A stretch of 64,000 nucleotides of DNA, taken from positions 1 through 64,000 of the forward strand of contig NZ_JARQWW010000004.1 in assembly GCF_029543125.1 (NCBI RefSeq), in the 5' to 3' direction. The position numbers and the translations under genes are program-made. The DNA comes from Caulobacter segnis. GTDB taxonomy: Bacteria > Pseudomonadota > Alphaproteobacteria > Caulobacterales > Caulobacteraceae. The notes beneath the pieces are model-generated. The model saw only the letters and a list, made by a program, of their open reading frames with translations, had not been told where the DNA came from and made no database searches. The first letter of the stretch is position 1. Every line of letters starts with the position of its first letter. This document shows positions 1 through 9,817 of the stretch, one piece after another.

Positions 1-147
1 TCGCGGCGCCGAACGGGGCTCGGGTCCTGAGCTGATTCGTGGCCCCCCCGGGGGGGGAGCTCCGGGGGATGTTGGGTGTGGGGGAGCCCCCTCCACCGCT
101 TCGCGGTCCCCCTCCCCCGGAGGGGGAGGATTTTGAAGAGCTGACCG
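1..147. other. upstream edge and GC-rich intergenic repeat before pheT
   Basis: The first ~36 bases may be the tail of an upstream gene (two frames reach a stop at about position 30-35), but it is too short to identify; pheS would be the usual neighbour. The rest is C- and G-rich inverted-repeat sequence, including a CCCCCCC/GGGGGGG palindrome near 44-58 and a small hairpin CCGC-TTC-GCGG near 98-108. Similar GC-rich hairpins recur at other gene ends in this window. Confidence 0.5.
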
Positions 148-2574
148 ATGAAATTCACTCTCTCCTGGCTCAAGGACCACCTCGAGACCGACGCGACGAT
201 CAGCCAGGTCGTCGACGCCATGACCATGGCGGGCCTCGAGGTCGAACACGTCACCGACCCGGCCACCAAGCTGGCCCCGTTCACGGTCGCCAAGATCGTC
301 GAGGCGGTGCAGCACCCCAACGCCGACCGCCTGCGCGTCTGTCAGGTGGACACGGTGGACGGCCGCAAGGAGATCGTCTGCGGCGCCCCGAATGCCCGCG
401 CCGGCCTGACCACCATCTACGCCCCCATCGGCGCCTATGTGCCGGGCCTTGGCGTGACCCTGGTGGAGAAACCGGTGCGCGGCGTCGTCTCCAACGGCAT
501 GCTCTGCTCGGCCTCCGAGCTTGAAGCCGCCGACGAGAGCGACGGCATCATGGAGCTGCCCGACAGCCTGGCCGTCGGGACGCCCGCCGTGGACGCCCTG
601 GGCCTGGAAGGCGTCATTGACTTCGAGGTCACCCCGAACCGCCCCGACTGGCTGGGCGTCAACGGCATCGCCCGCGACCTGTCCGCCACCGGCCTCGGCA
701 AGTTCATCGACCGCAAGGTGGAGCCGGTCGCCGGCAAGTTCCCCTGCCCGATCACGGTGAAGGTGGACGGCGACGCCTGCCACATCTTCGCCGGCCGCCT
801 GATCAAGGGCGTCAAGAACGGCCCTTCGCCCAAGTGGCTGGCCGACCGCCTGACCGCCATCGGCCTGCGCTCGATCAACACGCTCGTCGACATCACCAAC
901 CTGATCACCTACGACCGCGCCCGGCCGCTGCACGTCTATGACGCCGACAAGCTGGTGGGCGACGTGATCGAGGCCCGCCTCGGCAAGGGCCCCGCCCAGC
1001 CCGGCGGCGCGCATGAGCCCTCGCCGGAGAAGCACGCCGACGAGCAGCTCATCGCCCTGGACGGCAAGACCTACGACCTGTCGTCGGAGATGTCGGTCAT
1101 CGCCGACGCCGGCGGCGAGCGTCCCGTCGGCATCGGCGGCGTCATGGGCGGCGAGTCCACCGGCTGCTCGGACGAGACGGTCAACGTCTTCGTCGAGGCC
1201 GCCTGGTTCGATCCGATCCGCACGGCCCAGACCGGCCGCACCACCGGCATCAACTCCGACGCCCAGTACCGCTTCGCGCGCGGCGTCGATCCGGAAAGCT
1301 GCATCGACGGCGTCGAGCTGGCCACCCAGCTGATCCTGGACCTCTGCGGCGGCGAGCCGTCGGACGTCACCGTCGCCGGCCAGGCTCCGGCCGCCCCGGC
1401 CCCGGTCGCCTTCGATCCGGCCTATGTGCAGCAGCTCTCCGGCCTGTCGGTCACCGCCGACAAGACCAACGCCATCCTCGCCGCGCTCGGCTTCACGGTC
1501 GAAGGCGGCAAGGTCACGCCCCCCTCCTGGCGTCGCGACGTCCACGGCAAGGCCGACCTGGTCGAGGAAGTGGCCCGCATCGCCGGCTTCGACAGCCTGC
1601 CGTCCACGCCCCTGCCGGAAGTCGCCCGCGCCGTCGGCGGCATCCTGACCGCCAAGCAGGCCCGCGCCCGCCTGTCGCGCCGCGCCCTGGCCGCCGCCGG
1701 CTATCAGGAAGCCGTGACCTGGTCCTTCACCTCCAAGGCCACCGCAGAGCTGTTCGGCGGCGGTCAGGCGGACCTGGTCCTGGCCAACCCGATCGCGGCC
1801 GAGCTCGACTGCATGCGTCCGTCGATCCTGCCCAACCTGATCGAGGCCGCCGGCCGCAACGCCCGCCAGGGCTTCCCGGACGTCGCCCTGTTCGAGGTCG
1901 GCCCGGTGTTCCACAGCGACCGCCCCGACGGCCAGCGCACCGCCGTGACCGCCATCCTGGCGCCCCACGCCCCGCGCGGTTGGGACAAGCGCCCGGCGGA
2001 CGACCTCTATTCGGTAAAAGCCGACCTCGTGGCCCTGCTGGAGGAGATGGGCGCGCCCGTCGCCTCCCTGCAGACGGCTCAGGGCTCTGCCGGCGCCTGG
2101 TGGCACCCGGGCCGCTCAGCGCGCCTGCAGCTCGGCCCCAAGGCCGTCCTGGCCGAGTTCGGCGAGATCCACCCCGCCGTGCTCAAGGCCCTGGACGTGG
2201 CCGGTCCCGTCTATGCCTTCGAGATTTGGCTGGAGGCCGTGCCGGAGCCGAAGAAGAAGGCCCTGAAGACCAAGCCCGCCTACACCGGCTCGGCCCTCAT
2301 GCCCCTGAAGCGCGACTTCGCCTTCGTGGTCGAAGCCGCCAAGCCGGCCGGCGATCTGGTCAAGGCGGCGCTGAGCGCCGACAAGGCCCTGGTCACCGCC
2401 GCGCGGGTCTTCGACGTCTATCAGGGCCCGGGCGTGGCCGACGGCTTCAAGTCCGTCGCCCTGGAAGTCACCATCCAGCCCACCGACCACACCCTCACCG
2501 ACGCCGAGATCGAAGCCCTGTCGACCAAGATCGTGGCGGGAGCTGAGAAGGCCGGGGCGAAACTCAGGGGCTAA
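148..2574 (+). CDS. pheT: phenylalanine--tRNA ligase beta subunit
   Basis: Beta subunit of the cytoplasmic alpha2-beta2 phenylalanyl-tRNA synthetase, which charges tRNA-Phe; the beta chain carries editing and tRNA-binding domains. The 808-residue length is typical of the bacterial long form. Visible domains in order are the N-terminal [11 protein letters not shown] start, an EMAP/OB-type tRNA-binding domain (about 39-150, with [12 protein letters not shown]), the B3/B4 editing region with NRPDWLGV near 165 and DITNL near 250, B5 near 420-490, and a C-terminal ferredoxin-like anticodon-binding domain from about 715. The ATG at 148 begins the family's conserved N-terminus. The catalytic alpha subunit gene is not in the window and probably lies just upstream. 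Confidence 0.97.
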
Positions 2575-2582
2575 TCCTCCTT

Positions 2583-2612
2583 CTCTCCTGCCCCGCTTGC
2601 GGGGTAGGAGAA
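2583..2612. repeat. GC-rich hairpin after pheT
   Basis: CTCCTGCCCCG and CGGGGTAGGAG flank a short CTTG loop, giving an 11-bp stem with one G-T type mismatch just after the pheT stop. It may act as a 3' end or processing hairpin. It belongs to a group of similar CCCC/GGGG hairpins found at other gene ends here. Confidence 0.55.
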
Positions 2613-2753
2613 GTCTGGTTGTCGCCGACGACGGCTCAGGTTAAACACGACCCGCACACGGAGAGCCTCGCCGAAATGCATGCGCGTTTCGACATCGCTG
2701 AAATGAACGCCACGAGCCGCATGGCCTCGTGCGTTTCGCCGTGCGCCGCGCTC

Positions 2754-2819
2754 ATGACCGCCACCATTAAAATTATGACCGTCTCCACTCGGACGGGGCG
2801 TCGGCGCGCGACCACTTAA
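2754..2819 (+). CDS. candidate Thr/Ile leader peptide (21 aa)
   Basis: A short ORF reads MTATIKIMTVSTRTGRRRATT. Seven of 21 residues are Thr, and the two Ile codons are both ATT, which should be uncommon in a genome this GC-rich. It lies 34 bases before a terminator-like hairpin with a T run, and the leader's own 3' part contains a segment (2790-2799) that can pair with the terminator's 5' arm. That is the arrangement of a classical amino-acid attenuator. There is no strong Shine-Dalgarno sequence, and the frame stays open upstream, so the start could be ATG 2703. Recognition rests on codon content and RNA pairing only. Confidence 0.45.
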   Translation: MTATIKIMTVSTRTGRRRATT

Positions 2820-2852
2820 AATCGCCGACAAAGATCGCAGGATCTTCCAAAG

Positions 2853-2882
2853 CCCCGCTCCGGAAACGGACGCGGGGTTTTT
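2853..2882 (+). terminator. attenuator-like terminator before the ACT-domain pair
   Basis: The arm CCCCGCTCCG (2853-2862), loop GAAA and arm CGGACGCGGGG (2867-2877, one bulged base) are followed by TTTTT. The hairpin stands 42 bases upstream of the next start codon, so it lies inside that gene's leader. The upstream segment CGGACGGGGC (2790-2799) mimics the 3' arm and could pair with the 5' arm as an antiterminator. A small AAGATC/GATCTT hairpin lies at 2831-2846. Confidence 0.65.
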
Positions 2883-2924
2883 GTCGTGCGGTCTTCGTCG
2901 GTCCAACCCAAGGACCAGAACGAA

Positions 2925-3227
2925 ATGTCTTCCCTACCCTACGCTCTACCCCTCCCTGATGCGCAGCCGCAAAGGTCGGTGACGCACCTGCTGCTGGTGG
3001 CCGCGGCCAACGCCCAGGCGGCGCTGGAAGCCGTGCGCACGGGCCTGGACCTGTCCGGCGGCGAATTGGCCGGCCTGACCCTGAAGCCGCGCGGCGAAAT
3101 CGTCGAAGCCTCGCTCAGCGTGCGCTCGCTCAGCGATGACGCGGCCGTGCGCCTGACCGCCAACCTCGCCAGCCGTCCGGGCGTCAGCTCGGCCCGCGTC
3201 GAGCATGTGTGGGGGAAAGCCTCGTGA
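2925..3227 (+). CDS. small ACT-like regulatory protein, IlvM-type (first of pair)
   Basis: A 100-residue soluble protein. After a ~20-residue Pro-rich start, the sequence VTHLLLVAAANAQAALEAV... has the beta-alpha-beta-beta-alpha-beta spacing of an ACT domain and ends SSARVEHVWGKAS. The size and pattern resemble acetolactate synthase small subunits of the IlvM type, which bind branched-chain amino acids, but identity is low. The ATG at 2925 has AGGA about ten bases upstream; a GTG at 2886 is possible but lies almost on the terminator. It overlaps the next ORF by four bases (GTGA). No acetolactate synthase large subunit is adjacent. The function is inferred, not recognised. Confidence 0.6.
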   Translation: MSSLPYALPLPDAQPQRSVTHLLLVAAANAQAALEAVRTGLDLSGGELAGLTLKPRGEIVEASLSVRSLSDDAAVRLTANLASRPGVSSARVEHVWGKAS

Positions 3228-3478
3228 AGCCGGACAGCGACAAACGCCGCCTGTTCATGGTCAGCGCGGCCGACACCACCGACGCCCTGATCCGCGTGCT
3301 CAACGTCGTGGCCGTGCAGCAGGCGCGGCTGCGGCGCGTGGAGGCCGCCCAGACCGCCGAAGGCCTGACCATTTCGCTGGAGACCGACGACGAGGGCGAC
3401 GATCGCGCCGACCTGCTGGCCAGCCGCCTGGGCGCCTGCCTGGCCGTGCGCGGGGTCGGTTTCGGCTGGCGAATGTGA
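3224..3478 (+). CDS. small ACT-domain protein, IlvM-like (second of pair)
   Basis: An 84-residue protein starting at the GTG that overlaps the preceding stop; a GTG at 3209 would add five residues. The stretch TTDALIRVLNVVAVQQARLRRVEAA...LTISLETDDE resembles E. coli IlvM (ETLERVLRVV...NINIELTV), the regulatory small subunit of acetohydroxyacid synthase II, in length and hydrophobic pattern. Translational coupling suggests the pair works together, perhaps as a heterodimer of ACT domains. No catalytic partner is encoded nearby, so either it acts in trans on an enzyme encoded elsewhere or it is a free amino-acid sensor. Confidence 0.6.
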   Translation: MKPDSDKRRLFMVSAADTTDALIRVLNVVAVQQARLRRVEAAQTAEGLTISLETDDEGDDRADLLASRLGACLAVRGVGFGWRM

Positions 3479-3498
3479 AGCTCGCCAGCCTCCGTCCT

Positions 3499-4098
3499 TT
3501 AGAACGGGATGATGTTCCGCTGGCGGCTGTAGGCCAGGTAGCCCACGTTCGCGCCCAGGCGCAGGCCGACGCCGGCGCGGATCGGGGCCAGGGTGATGTC
3601 GTCGGCGCGCTGGTAGTTCACGCCCAGGCCGCCGATCAGATAGGCCGACCCCTCGACGCCCGGGAAACGGCGGAAGATCGCGTCGGGGAACTGCAGATTG
3701 TAGCAGAGGGTGAAGACCCGGCTGCCGTTGCCGCCGATGTCCCAACCGATGGACGGCCCCTGCCAGTACACGTCCGTGGTCGGACGGCCCTTCATGTAGA
3801 TCAGGCCGCGGCCGTAGCGCGCGCCGATGGTGAAGGCGGCCGAGGCCTCCTCGCCGGCGATGTAGGCGGTGGGACGGCCGTTGTCGGCGAAGATCTTCTC
3901 CACCGCGCCGCCCAGGGCCTCGGCGGTCACGCCCAGGAAGTCGGAACCCTTCTGGACGATCTCGTCCATGGTGTAGGTGTCCGCGCGCTGCGAGCCGTCC
4001 TCGTTGAAGCCGCCCTGATCCTGGCGGGGCTGGGCCGTGGCGCAGCCGGTGGTGGCGAGGGTGGCGATGCCGGAGGCGATGAGAGCGCGGCGGTCCAT
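3499..4098 (-). CDS. eipA: EipA-family (DUF1134) periplasmic envelope protein
   Basis: A 199-residue exported protein of the DUF1134 family, whose Brucella member EipA is a periplasmic protein needed for envelope stress resistance. An N-terminal signal (MDRRALIASGIATLATTGCATAQ) contains a possible but imperfect lipobox around Cys19. The conserved core runs from about 45 to 199, with DFLGVTAEALGGAVEKIF, a Gly-rich GARYGRGLIYMKG stretch and the C-terminal GANVGYLAYSRQRNIIPF. Transcription diverges from lepA. A perfect TTAA-N7-TTAA CtrA box lies 71-85 bases upstream of the ATG, which fits reports that Brucella eipA is controlled by CtrA. Confidence 0.85.
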   Translation of the reverse strand: MDRRALIASGIATLATTGCATAQPRQDQGGFNEDGSQRADTYTMDEIVQKGSDFLGVTAEALGGAVEKIFADNGRPTAYIAGEEASAAFTIGARYGRGLIYMKGRPTTDVYWQGPSIGWDIGGNGSRVFTLCYNLQFPDAIFRRFPGVEGSAYLIGGLGVNYQRADDITLAPIRAGVGLRLGANVGYLAYSRQRNIIPF

Positions 4099-4168
4099 GG
4101 GCGGGCCTTTCGAATCAGGAGCTTGGCCGAAAATGGCCGACCATTTCGTCGGGTTTGCGGCGGCAAGC

Positions 4169-4183
4169 TTAATGAGGCGTTAA
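4169..4183. promoter_or_regulatory. CtrA binding site (TTAA-N7-TTAA)
   Basis: TTAATGAGGCGTTAA matches the full CtrA consensus exactly. It lies between divergent eipA (start 4098) and lepA (start 4296) and is nearer to eipA. Confidence 0.75.
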
Positions 4184-4295
4184 GCGCCTTTCGCATGGTC
4201 AAGCTGACGGCACGCTGACGCCCGGCCCCTGCCCTCACGGTTCAACAACCGTCGGGATGATGCATAAGCCCGCGAATATGCTAGAGGCAGCCCCC

Positions 4296-6101
<1,806 letters not shown>

Positions 6102-6113
6102 GTTCAGTTTCTC

Positions 6114-6141
6114 CTCCCCCGTAGCGAAGCGTACGGGGGAG
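6114..6141. repeat. GC-rich hairpin after lepA
   Basis: CTCCCCCGTA (6114-6123) and TACGGGGGAG (6132-6141) form a perfect 10-bp stem 13 bases after the lepA stop. There is no clear T run. Confidence 0.6.
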
Positions 6142-6164
6142 ACTTAAGCTCTCACCGTCTCCCC

Positions 6165-6267
6165 AGGCCTTGTGCCTAGGGCCCATACGCTCCGCTTTTC
6201 CGGAAGGTCAGCGGACGCAACACGTAACTCCAAAGGCAGTGGGGAATGGGCCCTAGGCACAAGGCCT
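6165..6267. repeat. 22-bp perfect inverted repeat with structured spacer
   Basis: The arm at 6165-6186 is the exact reverse complement of the arm at 6246-6267, with a 59-base spacer that has its own TCCGC/GCGGA pairing. The right arm region also folds alone (CCCTAGGC-ACAAG-GCCTAGGG). This fills most of the lepA to 6335 gap. It looks like an intergenic repeat of the kind scattered through Caulobacterales genomes. Confidence 0.75.
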
Positions 6268-6334
6268 AGGGCGCGACGACGCATCCGCGCCGCCGCGCCT
6301 TGAGATTGTCACCACCCGCGGGCAGCATCCTCCC

Positions 6335-6916
6335 ATGCGCCTGACCGCCGCCCTCATCGCCCTGTCCCTCGCCGCGCCTGCCCTCGCGCAGGACGCGCCG
6401 ACGGACGTGTCCCCCGTCACCGTCATGCCGGCGGGGGATCCGCCGAAGCTGGCGGGCAGTTATCCGGCCGAAGGGGCCGAAGTCGTGGCCGGGTTGCTGG
6501 CCCTGAAGCTGACCTTCGACCAGCCCATGGACCCCAAGGGCTGGCGCATCGCCCAGGCCTCTCCGAACATGGCCGCGACTGACGGCGCCGCGCCCGAGGC
6601 CGCGACCTCGCCCCTGGACTGCCTGGGCGTGCCGCGCCTGCTGAAGGACGAGAAGAGCTTCGTGGTCCTGTGCCGCACCCTGCCCGGGCGGCACTATGTG
6701 GTGGCTCTGAACGCGCCCGGCGCCGCGCCGGTGTCGCCGGACGGAACGCCCACCGCCTTCGCCAACCTGGGCGGCCGCAGCGCTTTGCCCGCCACCCTGG
6801 CCTTCGGCACCCGCCCGCGTGGGGATGATCCTGTGCGGACCCTGAAGGCGGCCATGAGCAATGCAGGGCTCAGCGATACGGACAGCCCGGTGGTGGATAC
6901 GCCGCAGATGCGGTGA
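6335..6916 (+). CDS. exported protein with a bacterial Ig-like fold, unknown function
   Basis: A 193-residue protein with a clear Sec signal peptide (MRLTAALIALSLAAPALA, cut before QD). The mature part has SYPAEGAEVVAGLLALKLTFDQPMD at about 48-72, which resembles the opening of Big_5-type Ig-like domains (a proline-rich strand, then F-x-QPMD). Two cysteines (near 95 and 111) could form a disulfide in the periplasm. The ATG at 6335 begins the signal peptide. No partner gene is obvious. I do not recognise a function. Confidence 0.7.
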   Translation: MRLTAALIALSLAAPALAQDAPTDVSPVTVMPAGDPPKLAGSYPAEGAEVVAGLLALKLTFDQPMDPKGWRIAQASPNMAATDGAAPEAATSPLDCLGVPRLLKDEKSFVVLCRTLPGRHYVVALNAPGAAPVSPDGTPTAFANLGGRSALPATLAFGTRPRGDDPVRTLKAAMSNAGLSDTDSPVVDTPQMR

Positions 6917-6925
6917 GGGGATGCG

Positions 6926-7025
6926 TGCTTCGACAGCTCGCTTCACTCGCGCTCAGCATGATGAACGTGGGTGCGCTCTGAATTCCTCATCCTGAGCTGG
7001 CGCGCAGCGCCAAGTCGAAGGATGC
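6926..7025. repeat. pair of CATCCT...AGGATG type intergenic elements
   Basis: Two related elements sit head to head. One at 6985-7025 has CATCCT and AGGATG outer arms around a TGGCGC-GCA-GCGCCA hairpin and contains the strings CTGAG and GTCGAAG. The other, at 6926-6963, carries the same strings in the opposite orientation (CTTCGAC, CTCAGCATGATG). This is a common type of dispersed repeat in alphaproteobacteria. Confidence 0.6.
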
Positions 7026-7030
7026 ACTCG

Positions 7031-7279
7031 CTAATGCAGATCATCCGGCGCATCCCGCGCCAGGTCGGCGACGATGGCCAGCTCCTTGCGGATGTGGGCC
7101 CAGACCTCGGGGCTCGCGTCGCCGACCTTGGAGCCCTCGACGGCGGCGATAGTGAACACCGCCCGCAGTTCGTCCAGCAGATCGGGATCGCGCAGCGCCA
7201 GCAGCGTCATCAGCGCCTTGAGCAGGCGGTCGTTCGCCTCGATCTTGGCGCGCAGCTCGTCCTCGACGGCCTGTTCCAT
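7031..7279 (-). CDS. hypothetical small helical protein
   Basis: An 82-residue acidic protein starting MEQAVEDELRAKIEANDRLL. It is predicted to be mainly helical, with no signal peptide or membrane segment. The frame is open upstream, but the extra sequence is Arg/Pro-rich shadow, so the internal ATG at 7279 is preferred. It diverges from the next gene across ~100 bases. I do not recognise the family. Confidence 0.5.
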   Translation of the reverse strand: MEQAVEDELRAKIEANDRLLKALMTLLALRDPDLLDELRAVFTIAAVEGSKVGDASPEVWAHIRKELAIVADLARDAPDDLH

Positions 7280-7377
7280 GGGCAGGCAACGTGCGGGCGG
7301 CGACCGCTGTTCCGCCAGCCGCCGCTTGCCCACCGGCGACACGGGCGCATGATGGAGCCCTGCCCCACGGAGATTCC

Positions 7378-7659
7378 ATGGCCGACGACGAACTGGAGCT
7401 TCTGAAACAGGCGGTGCGCGACCTGCAAGCCGAAAGCTTCGCAACCCGCGCCCTTCTGCCCTGGCTGATCGGCGTGGCCGTCAGCGGCTTCAGCGACGAC
7501 CCCGAAGGCCGCCTGCGCGAACTGCACGAAGTCGCCCAGGGCCGCCTCTACGAAATGGACATCGGCGGCGAGGAAGACGCCGTGGCGCGGCTGAAAGACC
7601 GGGCGTCCCTGGTTCTGGACGACTGGATCAACTCGATCCAGATCGAGCGGGATGGGTGA
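7378..7659 (+). CDS. hypothetical small protein
   Basis: A 93-residue protein, MADDELELLKQAVRDLQAES..., helical and acidic at the end. The start follows GGAG at about seven bases, which outweighs an open frame upstream to 7291. It has a loose resemblance (acidic helix, then a hydrophobic helix, then D-P-E/D) to the divergent 82-residue protein, so the two may be distant relatives. No known function. Confidence 0.6.
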   Translation: MADDELELLKQAVRDLQAESFATRALLPWLIGVAVSGFSDDPEGRLRELHEVAQGRLYEMDIGGEEDAVARLKDRASLVLDDWINSIQIERDG

Positions 7660-7791
7660 GGGATCGAGGGTGAGGGTGACAGCGGCGGCGGAGTTCAGCT
7701 CGGCCGCGCCACATCCTGAACCTCTTCCACCCCCTTACCTGCCCTTCCCCCATCAAGGGGGAAAGGAAGAAGCAACCCCAAGGACCACCCC
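7660..7791. other. short intergenic stretch with a CCCCC/GGGGG hairpin
   Basis: Between two hypothetical genes. It contains TTCCCCC (7745-7751) and GGGGGAA (7757-7763) as a 7-bp hairpin, with AAGGA serving the next gene. No other signal was seen. Confidence 0.4.
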
Positions 7792-8091
7792 ATGAGCCGC
7801 AATCGTCAACGGAAACCCGGCCCGCCCACGACGGAGGAGCTTGAGCAAAAGCTCGCCCGGGATCTGGCGGACCTGGAAGAGATGCTCAACATCGCCCTGG
7901 CGCTCTATCCACCCGTACGTGGCGAGCCGCGAATGCCCAGGACGCCTTCGCTCCCGAAGCTCAAACCCTTCTCGGGCCCGGTGACGAAAGCGCGGGAACA
8001 GGAAGTGCATGCGTTCACCAAGCTGGTCATCGCCATGGTGCGCGAGCAGCGCGGCATGCTTCCCCTCAAACCCCAATCCCCCCCATACTGA
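7792..8091 (+). CDS. hypothetical protein
   Basis: A 99-residue protein, with a basic and Pro-rich start (MSRNRQRKPGPPTTEELEQ), a short amphipathic helix, and a C-terminal helix with AREQEVHAFTKLVIAMVREQ. The ATG has AAGGA ten bases upstream. No signal peptide. The family was not recognised; the N-terminal basic patch would permit nucleic-acid or membrane-surface binding, but this is not shown. Confidence 0.55.
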   Translation: MSRNRQRKPGPPTTEELEQKLARDLADLEEMLNIALALYPPVRGEPRMPRTPSLPKLKPFSGPVTKAREQEVHAFTKLVIAMVREQRGMLPLKPQSPPY

Positions 8092-8116
8092 CCCCGTCGC
8101 CAAACGGGACCCACCC

Positions 8117-8791
8117 ATGAACTTCATGATTCAGCTTCTCGATTCCCTCGATGAGCTTCTGTTCCGGGTGATGAGCTGGCTGGTGTTCTATCCGCTCACC
8201 CTGTGGCGGACGGTGCTGCATCCCCTGAAGATGACCGCCTTCGCCGACCAGCAGATGAACGAGGCGGAGGAGCGCCGCCATGTGGCCACGGTCAGCCCGC
8301 CGCTGTTCCTCTTTCTATCTCTGCTGCTGTCGCACGGGCTCGAGCTGGCGCTGATCGGCGACAGTCCCCTGCTCGCCGAGCATCATCGGCTGGGCGATCT
8401 GGTGAACGACGACACCAGCCTGCTGGTCCTGCGGCTGGCCCTGTTCGCGGTCTTTCCGCTGCTGGTGTCGATCCGCCTGCTGCAGCGCCGGCGCGCCGCC
8501 CTGACGCGCGACACCCTCAAGCCGCCTTTCTACAGCCAGTGCTATCTGGCCGCGCCCTTCGCTCTGACCCTGGGCATGGCCGGGACGCTGTTGCAGATGC
8601 ACGCCCTGCCCTGGGCGGAGCTGACGGGCGCGGCGATGGTCATCATCGCCCTGATCTGGTTCGTGGCCGTTGAGGCGGCGTGGTTCCGCCAGGAGCTGGG
8701 CGCCTCGGTCGGGCGCAGCCTGCTGGACGCCGTGATCGCCACGGCCCAGGGGGTGGCGATCCTGGCGATCGTCGCGCCCCTGTTCGCCTAA
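8117..8791 (+). CDS. integral membrane protein, unknown function
   Basis: A 224-residue protein with about five hydrophobic segments (near 18-32, 60-80, 100-125, 145-165, 173-190 and a C-terminal one at 205-224), and a charged loop DQQMNEAEERRHVAT between the first two. The overall plan recalls Yip1/permease-like small membrane proteins. The ATG at 8117 lies 25 bases after the preceding gene, suggesting co-transcription. It converges on kdgK. No catalytic motif is visible. Confidence 0.6.
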   Translation: MNFMIQLLDSLDELLFRVMSWLVFYPLTLWRTVLHPLKMTAFADQQMNEAEERRHVATVSPPLFLFLSLLLSHGLELALIGDSPLLAEHHRLGDLVNDDTSLLVLRLALFAVFPLLVSIRLLQRRRAALTRDTLKPPFYSQCYLAAPFALTLGMAGTLLQMHALPWAELTGAAMVIIALIWFVAVEAAWFRQELGASVGRSLLDAVIATAQGVAILAIVAPLFA

Positions 8792-8792
8792 G

Positions 8793-8809
8793 GCGCTAGC
8801 CTAGCGCTT
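8793..8809. terminator. possible bidirectional hairpin at the convergent ends of 8117-8791 and kdgK
   Basis: GCGCTA and TAGCGC flank a three-base loop and overlap the kdgK stop codon. The stem is short and there is no T run. Confidence 0.35.
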
Positions 8810-9817
8810 GACGTCCAGGCCTTCGCCGTCGAGTAGGGCGTGGACGTCGCCAGCCGACACCAGGTTGAAGTCGCCGAACACCGCATGCTTCAGGGCGCCG
8901 GCGGCCAGGCCGAACTCAACCGCGTCGGCGTCGTCCATGCCGGTCAGCAGGCCGTGCAGCACGCCGGCGGCGAAGGCGTCGCCCCCGCCGATGCGGTCCA
9001 CCACCCCGGCCAGCGGGAAGGCGCGCGTGATGTGCTCGCCGCCGCCGCGCGACAGGATCACCGCCGACAGTTCGTGATGATCGGCCGAGGGCGTCAGGCG
9101 CACGGTCGAGGTCATGCGCTTCAGGTTCGGGAACACCTCGAAGGCGCGCTCGGCGGCCTTGCGGCGGCGCACCTGGGCGGACTCGTCCAGGAAGCTTTCG
9201 CCCAGGATCAGGGCGATGTCGCGGTCGTTGACGAAGGCCAGGTCGGCGCAGTCCAGGATCTGGCGCAGCACGGCCGGGCCGTCGCCGTTCCAGGCGGCCC
9301 ACATCTTGGCGCGGTAGTTGCCGTCGAAGCTGACGGGCACGCCCAGCTTGCGGGCGGTCTGCACCGCCTTGATCACCGCATTGGCGGCCGACGGACCGAC
9401 CGCCGGGGTCACGCCCGAGACGTGAAACCAGTCGGCGCCCTCCAGCTCCTTCTCCCAGTCGATGGCGTCTTCCGAGGCCAGGGCGAAGGCGGAGCCGGCG
9501 CGGTCGTAGGTGACCTCCGACGGACGCACCACGGCGCCCGGCGACAGGAAATACAGGCCCATGCGCCCGTCGACGAAACGCAGGCTCGAGGTGTCGACCC
9601 CGTGCCGGCGCAGCTCGTCCCGGGCCGAACGGCCCAGCGGGTTGTCGGGCAGGATGGAGACCGTCGCCGCGTCGTGGCCGAACTTGGCCAGGGACACGGC
9701 CACATTGGCCTCCGCCCCGCCGACGCAGACATTCAGCCGGGCCGACTGCAGCAGCAGCTCATTGGTGGGAGCAGAGAGGCGCAGCAGCACCTCGCCGAAG
9801 CAGACGACACGGCTCAA
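8801..9817 (-). CDS. kdgK: 2-dehydro-3-deoxygluconokinase (KDG kinase)
   Basis: A PfkB-family sugar kinase that phosphorylates 2-keto-3-deoxygluconate to KDPG, the entry to the lower Entner-Doudoroff route. The 338-residue protein has GGAEANVAVSLAKFG near 33-47 (PfkB signature 1 region) and DRIGGGDAFAAG near 283-294, with the catalytic Asp in GGGDAF. It is the last gene of uxaC-kduI-kduD-kdgK, 19 bases after kduD. No KDPG aldolase gene is present here, so that step must be encoded elsewhere. Confidence 0.93.
   Translation of the reverse strand: MSRVVCFGEVLLRLSAPTNELLLQSARLNVCVGGAEANVAVSLAKFGHDAATVSILPDNPLGRSARDELRRHGVDTSSLRFVDGRMGLYFLSPGAVVRPSEVTYDRAGSAFALASEDAIDWEKELEGADWFHVSGVTPAVGPSAANAVIKAVQTARKLGVPVSFDGNYRAKMWAAWNGDGPAVLRQILDCADLAFVNDRDIALILGESFLDESAQVRRRKAAERAFEVFPNLKRMTSTVRLTPSADHHELSAVILSRGGGEHITRAFPLAGVVDRIGGGDAFAAGVLHGLLTGMDDADAVEFGLAAGALKHAVFGDFNLVSAGDVHALLDGEGLDVKR

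Follow-up and report, generated by a model that had tools for sequence, protein, structure and literature searches.

A probable ribosome-mediated attenuator in front of two small ACT proteins in Caulobacter segnis

Attenuators are textbook controls of biosynthetic enzymes. In E. coli, the leaders of thrL-thrABC and ilvL-ilvGMEDA combine mixed Thr/Ile or Ile/Leu/Val codons with a switchable leader RNA, and ilvM encodes a small ACT subunit that serves IlvG. Subunits of the IlvM type activate or desensitise their enzyme. In SdaAB, the beta chain of the Fe-S L-serine dehydratase, an allosteric domain is joined to an ACT domain. Within the genus considered here, the ilvBN operon of C. crescentus is attenuated via tandem Ile and Val codons, according to PMC4117421. 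We analysed a stretch of 64,000 nucleotides from Caulobacter segnis (contig NZ_JARQWW010000004.1, positions 1 to 64,000), referred to below as the window. Taken as a whole, the results make it likely that a ribosome-mediated attenuator in this window controls a bicistronic operon of two small paralogous ACT proteins, called ACT1 and ACT2 here.

The features of the window follow one another in the order pheT, leader, terminator, ACT1, ACT2, an EipA-family gene on the opposite strand and a lepA-like ORF (Table 1). Within the stored flanks of 40 named loci, pheT was found at 31, an msrA-like gene at 29 and an EipA-like gene at 28. These loci are mostly titled Caulobacter, and a few are titled only Caulobacteraceae, Caulobacterales, Alphaproteobacteria or Proteobacteria. 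A simple scan of the window did not find a sigma-70-type promoter for the leader. The candidate promoter listed in Table 1 resembles what we take to be the Caulobacter housekeeping consensus, and CTTGCGC and GCTAACTGT-like boxes were seen by eye at its place in relatives. An Rfam scan of the window at gathering scores returned a tRNA as its sole match. Comparison of the loci indicates that the leader-ACT unit is kept in Caulobacter and several relatives without an enzyme gene.

Table 1. Features of the leader-ACT locus and its neighbours, with positions in the window.
Feature	Position	Strand	Basis or remark
pheT	148-2574		
Candidate promoter, TTGTCG - 15 nt - GTTAAAC	2619..2646	+	By eye
Leader peptide ORF, 47 aa, MHARFDIAEMNATSRMASCVSPCAALMTATIKIMTVSTRTGRRRATT	2676..2819	+	Same-place ORF in relatives, frame conservation
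Putative control codons ACC ATT AAA ATT ATG ACC (Thr Ile Lys Ile Met Thr)	2763..2780	+	Position checked
Arm 1 (CCGTCT), predicted partner of GGACGG in arm 2 (hairpin 1:2)	2779..2784	+	Predicted fold
Arm 2, putative antiterminator strand CGGACGGGGC	2790..2799	+	Co-varies with arm 3
Small GATC/GATC hairpin between leader and terminator	2833..2844	+	99.2% of cells paired (60 rows), nearly invariant
Arm 3, terminator 5' arm GCCCCGCTCCG	2852..2862	+	Co-varies with arm 2
Arm 4, terminator 3' arm CGGACGCGGGG (2867-2877), then TTTTT (2878-2882)	2867..2882	+	Core stem invariant in 60/60
ACT1, 100 aa	2925..3227	+	AlphaFold2 model, PDB structure matches, same-genus profile matches
ACT2, 84 aa	3224..3478	+	GTGA overlap with ACT1; profile evidence
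EipA-family (envelope integrity) gene	3499-4098	-	Next to the ACT operon
lepA-like ORF	4257-6101		Named from its own sequence

A preliminary description of this DNA had proposed a leader of 21 residues. The corresponding segment, MTATIKIMTVSTRTGRRRATT at 2754-2819, is present, but it is the C-terminal part of a conserved ORF of 47 codons that starts at 2676, and the 21-codon leader was therefore rejected. The conservation of the leader in relatives, which that description had proposed as a check, turned out to be extensive. A leader ORF of 43-50 aa precedes ACT1 at all 40 named loci and occupies the same place at all 28 further same-genus loci (L004-L031) with full leader regions that came from an ACT1 search over 61 genomes; the two sets overlap in genomes, and one more locus, L032, ends at a contig edge. 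The leader also precedes ACT1 and/or ACT2 in five other genera (g16, g17, g23, g30 and g32), as judged from loci in which an unrelated protein X precedes ACT2 (see below), from L086 and L087 (g32), where the leader stands before ACT1 without a visible ACT2, and from the ACT1-ACT2 units L084, L085, L088-L091 and L093. In the leader part of alignment A4 (60 rows, columns 21-70), all 86 internal gaps are multiples of three (3, 6 or 9), while gaps 3' of the leader ORF have many lengths. Base differences among leaders are most frequent at the third codon position (212, 206 and 323 for the three positions). Synonymous and non-synonymous codon differences number 211 and 398 in frame, compared with 106/491 and 72/509 in the shifted frames, in a sample of 72 close pairs of equal length drawn from 41 distinct Caulobacter-group leaders, the pairs being related and not independent. 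These patterns argue that the leader is a short coding ORF whose frame is conserved.

The window leader has ATT Ile codons at 2766 and 2772. Codons were counted in stretches of 14 codons running up to about the antiterminator strand, using the 60 distinct leaders that remained of 66 after identical rows were dropped. The 840 codons, which come from related rows so that the counts are not independent, include 171 Thr, 131 Ile and 121 Met. Ile is encoded by ATT in 115 of the 131 cases (ATC 15, ATA 1); the share of ATT among the Ile codons of pheT and lepA in the window is 3/77. Every one of the 60 leaders has ATT and Thr in the counted stretch and 59 have Met, the exception being L038, for which the stretch was placed too far downstream by the script and was counted so. 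The Thr and Ile control codons proposed previously, including the two ATT codons, are thus present, but the Met codons, which had gone unmentioned, are equally striking. Judged by these counts, the leader carries putative control codons enriched in Ile, Thr and Met.

The terminator described previously as following the leader, with its run of T, was found in all its parts: 5' arm, loop, 3' arm and TTTTT. It was missing from the output of a simple terminator scan of the window because the stem has a bulge. In the structure check suggested for this region, none of 200 dinucleotide-shuffled sequences was predicted to fold as stably as RNA 2754-2890 (z -3.87). A GGGG..TTTT motif (≤160 nt) was found for all 66 leaders with positions, and the core stem is identical in the 60 distinct rows. 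Because they show almost no variation, the terminator and GATC stems provide no co-variation support. The proposed alternative pairing of 2790-2799 with the terminator 5' arm does co-vary. Among 22 clusters formed at 80% identity, the mean duplex energy of arms 2 and 3 was -18.23 for true pairs and -16.37 (sd 0.43) for re-paired ones, and 0 of 20,000 re-pairings were as good as the true pairing, with only 15 of the 22 clusters beating the mean of their own swaps. Across clades, the register and sequence of arm 2 shift together with those of arm 3. When the same test was applied to the terminator arms 3:4, which vary little, 8,284 of 20,000 permutations were as good. Hairpin 1:2 is the predicted fold of the short segment in 22/22 clusters (-3.2 to -10.7 kcal/mol). 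Its arms vary little as well and do not co-vary beyond swapped controls (own -6.99 versus swapped -6.92; 7,971 of 20,000 as good), which leaves predicted folding as the basis of the protector step. In the window leader, the second ATT lies 18 nt 5' of arm 2, and given the size of the ribosome footprint, a stall at that codon would hide arm 1 but keep arm 2 accessible. Comparison of leaders, codons and pairing supports the earlier proposal of antitermination by the leader strand, and together with the leader frame and the terminator it leads us to identify the element as a ribosome-mediated attenuator with high confidence.

Further pairings were noticed in the same region. CCGAC at 2825-2829, before the terminator, can pair with GTCGG at 2897-2901, after it, and GGTCC at 2900-2904 can pair with GGACC at 2912-2916, part of the Shine-Dalgarno-like AAGGACC before ACT1. 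For the outer helix around the terminator, co-variation is weak: 289 of 20,000 permutations did at least as well. This helix and the Shine-Dalgarno pairing could possibly form a second layer of control.

Neither window protein matches a family in Pfam or NCBIfam, both falling below the curated cut-offs, and no credible match to ACT1 and its family was found in Pfam, NCBIfam or PDB sequences. An AlphaFold2 model of ACT1 built from a 22-row alignment (pLDDT 82.6) has the order beta-alpha-beta-beta-alpha-beta. Compared with PDB structures, it matches at E 0.001 or better a set that includes the ACT domains of homoserine dehydrogenase, Rel and SerA, along with chains of similar topology from NikR, MgtC and ribosomal S10. 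We take the model to predict an ACT fold for ACT1. A single-sequence structure model of ACT2 was poor (pLDDT 66.7, two helices) and was set aside. The best PDB match of the ACT2 profile is the AHAS small subunit IlvH (E 0.0012), and Pfam ACT_5 is matched by 6 of 14 ACT2 family members, though not by the window ACT2. We take the two proteins to be paralogs because in many genomes ACT2 is also picked up by A2, a wider profile of ACT1, because ACT1 is in turn matched by the ACT2 profile A3, and because hhalign of ACT2 against the ACT1 family gives 97.5% (E 6e-12). Profile A2 also weakly matches the C-terminal ACT domain of homoserine dehydrogenase in g26. On this profile evidence, ACT2 is an IlvH-like ACT protein related to ACT1. 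The ACT1 profile A1 matches 51 of 199 family genomes at E 0.001 (33/39 in the window's genus, among the matches listed) and A3 matches 57 of 199 at E 1e-5 (37/39, likewise among the matches listed); two of the 39 same-genus genomes match neither. In a class-wide search with A2, 2 of 385 genomes matched, the window's own and one other.

The claim that the locus encodes two coupled, IlvM-like ACT proteins was thus borne out by the gene overlap, the predicted fold of ACT1 and the ACT2 profile, but not by a Pfam or NCBIfam match of the window proteins themselves. The contrary outcome, that the ORFs are not ACT domains, does not agree with the fold predicted for ACT1. The stated absence of a catalytic subunit also held: when the IlvB of this genome was run by tblastn at E 1e-3 over the window and 65 related loci (609,265 bases of locus sequence), no AHAS large subunit turned up, and the only match was the control locus L151. 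The genome has one TPP_enzyme_N protein, IlvB (602 aa), which is followed by an IlvN-like ORF (183 aa) and preceded by a GTG-started ORF, VDLEQQLVRDLKIVLTRRPTAA; ilvBN is located elsewhere in the genome, not at ACT1-ACT2. We consider it quite likely that ACT1 and ACT2 are an ACT regulatory pair.

The first gene of the pair is exchangeable. At 15 loci in 14 genomes (L107-L110, L116-L126), four of them of the window's genus, a protein of ~100-125 aa, here called X, replaces ACT1 between the leader and ACT2. X has no similarity to the ACT1 family. It weakly resembles the Serine dehydratase beta chain domain (SDH_beta; 6 of 13 members, best E 0.00011) and matches PDB 2iaf (E 1.6e-6). Relatives of the leader itself were sought in this genome and 119 family genomes with R1, a covariance model of the leader. 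In addition to the window copy (E 3.6e-19), this genome has a second copy at G000:C5:139716-139830 (E 5.7e-9), where a leader ending LSLAVVIIPAPVGRTSAS and its terminator stand before genes for an X homolog of 124 aa and a branched-chain aminotransferase (ilvE). This second leader of the genome, with Val-Val-Ile-Ile codons, lies at 6090-6224 on the reverse strand of locus L132 (G000:C5:132000-146000). Two weak matches in this genome were disregarded: one on C11 (E 0.59) has no leader, and the other (E 0.98) lies opposite the window terminator, on the reverse strand.

R1 matched 41 of the 119 family genomes at E 0.001. Fifteen matches lie outside ACT1/X-ACT2 units and the L132 copy, and all of these except G163:C26 were read. 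Among the 14, ilvD-like genes stand behind Leu/Ile/Val-rich leaders in other genera of the family at five (L136, L138, L139, L141, L144; one NCBIfam-confirmed), an aspartokinase-homoserine dehydrogenase (AK-HSD) stands behind Thr/Met-rich leaders at two (L143, L145), and X stands behind a Leu-rich leader at two. The remaining five matches, L137, L140, L142, L146 and L147, lack an amino-acid-rich leader; they probably reflect terminators hit by chance. Rfam CC2171 matches in L089 and L090 have no fixed place relative to the leader and were discarded. The codons of the sibling leaders fit the genes downstream and therefore count in favour of the attenuator reading. They tie this type of attenuator to Thr, Ile, Leu and Val.

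In the mechanism we propose, plentiful charged tRNA-Ile and tRNA-Thr, and in many relatives also tRNA-Met, would allow the ribosome to pass the control codons, upon which terminator arms 3:4 would form and transcription would end before ACT1. If the ribosome stalls at the ATT/ACC codons, arm 1 would be covered but arm 2 would be available for pairing with arm 3, so that the terminator would be blocked and ACT1-ACT2 made. The two proteins would then most likely act in trans: as regulatory subunits that respond to amino acids, they would serve a separately encoded enzyme of the homoserine-Thr-Ile/Met branch. We infer the starvation response, complex formation, the ligand and the target enzyme. 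By analogy with IlvM and IlvG, the leading single candidate for the target would be IlvB (AHAS), an assignment that we make tentatively. A regulatory subunit raised by starvation would be sensible if it activates or desensitises its enzyme.

The neighbours of ACT1-like genes point to methionine instead of AHAS. At all four type-B loci (L092, L095, L096, L099), the ACT1-like gene lies directly before a metY-like gene; NCBIfam tests of metY and metA covered one 113-aa metY fragment and one 130-aa metA fragment. At L095 a metA-like gene also follows the ACT1-like gene. A SAM-I/IV riboswitch (Rfam RF01725) lies just 5' of the ACT1-like gene at all five type-C loci tested (L094, L097, L098, L100, L101). 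Both kinds of neighbour tie ACT1-like proteins to methionine, and they would suit a scheme in which methionine or SAM is the signal sensed by ACT1-ACT2 and MetY/MetA or the supply of homoserine is what they regulate, with Met codons as key control codons and Ile and Thr reporting the same homoserine pool. The Met content of the leaders (121/840 counted codons) and the msrA-like gene at 29/40 named loci agree with such a scheme. However, the positions of the Met codons in several Caulobacter leaders would put them so far 5' that a ribosome stalled on them would stop short of arm 1, and it is ATT and ACC codons that lie close to that arm. Moreover, the sibling leader of the same genome appears to govern X-ilvE, and no metY adjoins the ACT pair in window 1-9000. 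We therefore regard the methionine scheme, including the leading role it gives to the Met codons, as rather unlikely. An enzyme of the methionine/homoserine branch has, in our view, slightly lower odds of being the target than AHAS.

Three other explanations fare less well. It is improbable that ACT1 and ACT2 are detached regulatory domains of an AK-HSD lacking its own. Some relatives do have a 581-aa AK-HSD fusion behind a Thr/Met-rich leader (L143:810-2552, L145:886-2628), and the one tested, from L143, matches Pfam AA_kinase and Homoserine_dh with no ACT match at E 0.01, its kind having NCBIfam matches that lie below curated cut-offs. Yet full-length fusions occur, among the matches listed, in genera g13, g14, g20 and g25, where the leader-ACT1/ACT2 unit is absent from the matches (g25 has ACT1-like genes with SAM-I/IV riboswitches), and the homoserine dehydrogenase of this genome is a separate protein of 429 aa with its own ACT domain. 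For the window's genus the idea is not supported. It is very improbable that the leader ORF makes a small protein with a function of its own and that the RNA pairing is incidental. Several leaders do, on inspection, have a hydrophobic N-terminal half, and a peptide of 43-50 aa would be long for an attenuator. But that half, also judged by eye, varies strongly across clades that retain the control codons and arm 2; in addition, arm 2 and the terminator co-vary, and the control region is rich in ATT. The loss of ilvG from an ilvGM-type operon, raised in the preliminary description, would fit the similarity of ACT2 to AHAS small subunits and the attenuation of ilvG-ilvM in E. coli. It was nevertheless rejected, and we hold it to be extremely improbable, since the tblastn search with IlvB at E 1e-3 found nothing but its positive control and thus no ilvG beside the ACT genes at the 65 related loci, and the pair is widespread without a large subunit, as seen from the ACT1 profile matches in the same genus.

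Returning to the attenuated ACT pair, one possible extension, to which we give limited credence, is that in Caulobacteraceae ACT1 or X, plus ACT2, forms a detached and exchangeable allosteric module that is made only on a shortage of Ile, Thr or Met and acts in trans on at least one separately encoded aspartate or branched-chain enzyme. If so, starvation would change the feedback properties of existing enzymes and not only enzyme amounts, and the attenuator would act on a regulator rather than on a pathway enzyme. Caulobacter is the genus of a model bacterium, and here the putative attenuator, kept across several genera, stands before nothing but small proteins of a ligand-sensing type. Together, the sibling leaders before ilvD-like, X-ilvE and AK-HSD genes, the exchange of the first gene and the metY and SAM-riboswitch neighbours of ACT1-like genes would outline a regulatory network. 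No description of an ACT-pair attenuator or of such a network was seen among the papers listed by our literature searches, and the main text of PMC2965389 does not mention Caulobacter.

Attenuation is an established mechanism, but we have seen no earlier case of it acting on a free-standing ACT pair whose first gene can be exchanged. The locus shares mixed control codons, a switchable leader RNA and a small ACT product (IlvM) with thrL-thrABC and ilvL-ilvGMEDA of E. coli, but those operons encode biosynthetic enzymes and the ACT1-ACT2 operon encodes none. It resembles IlvM, IlvH and IlvN in the predicted ACT fold and in the IlvH and ACT_5 matches of the ACT2 family. In contrast to them, it provides two separate paralogous single-ACT proteins that lie below Pfam detection, with no large subunit at the locus. 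Where the weakly SDH_beta-like X precedes ACT2, at 15 loci, the two kinds of domain and their order are those of SdaAB, whereas X and ACT2 are separate genes behind an Ile/Thr/Met leader, and no catalytic alpha chain was noticed nearby. The locus also resembles the ilvBN attenuator of C. crescentus (PMC4117421), which comes from the same group of bacteria and has a leader peptide with control codons, a terminator and antitermination on stalling. That attenuator responds through Ile and Val codons and precedes the catalytic and regulatory subunits of AHAS, whereas the putative control codons here are for Ile, Thr and Met and precede only two ACT proteins.
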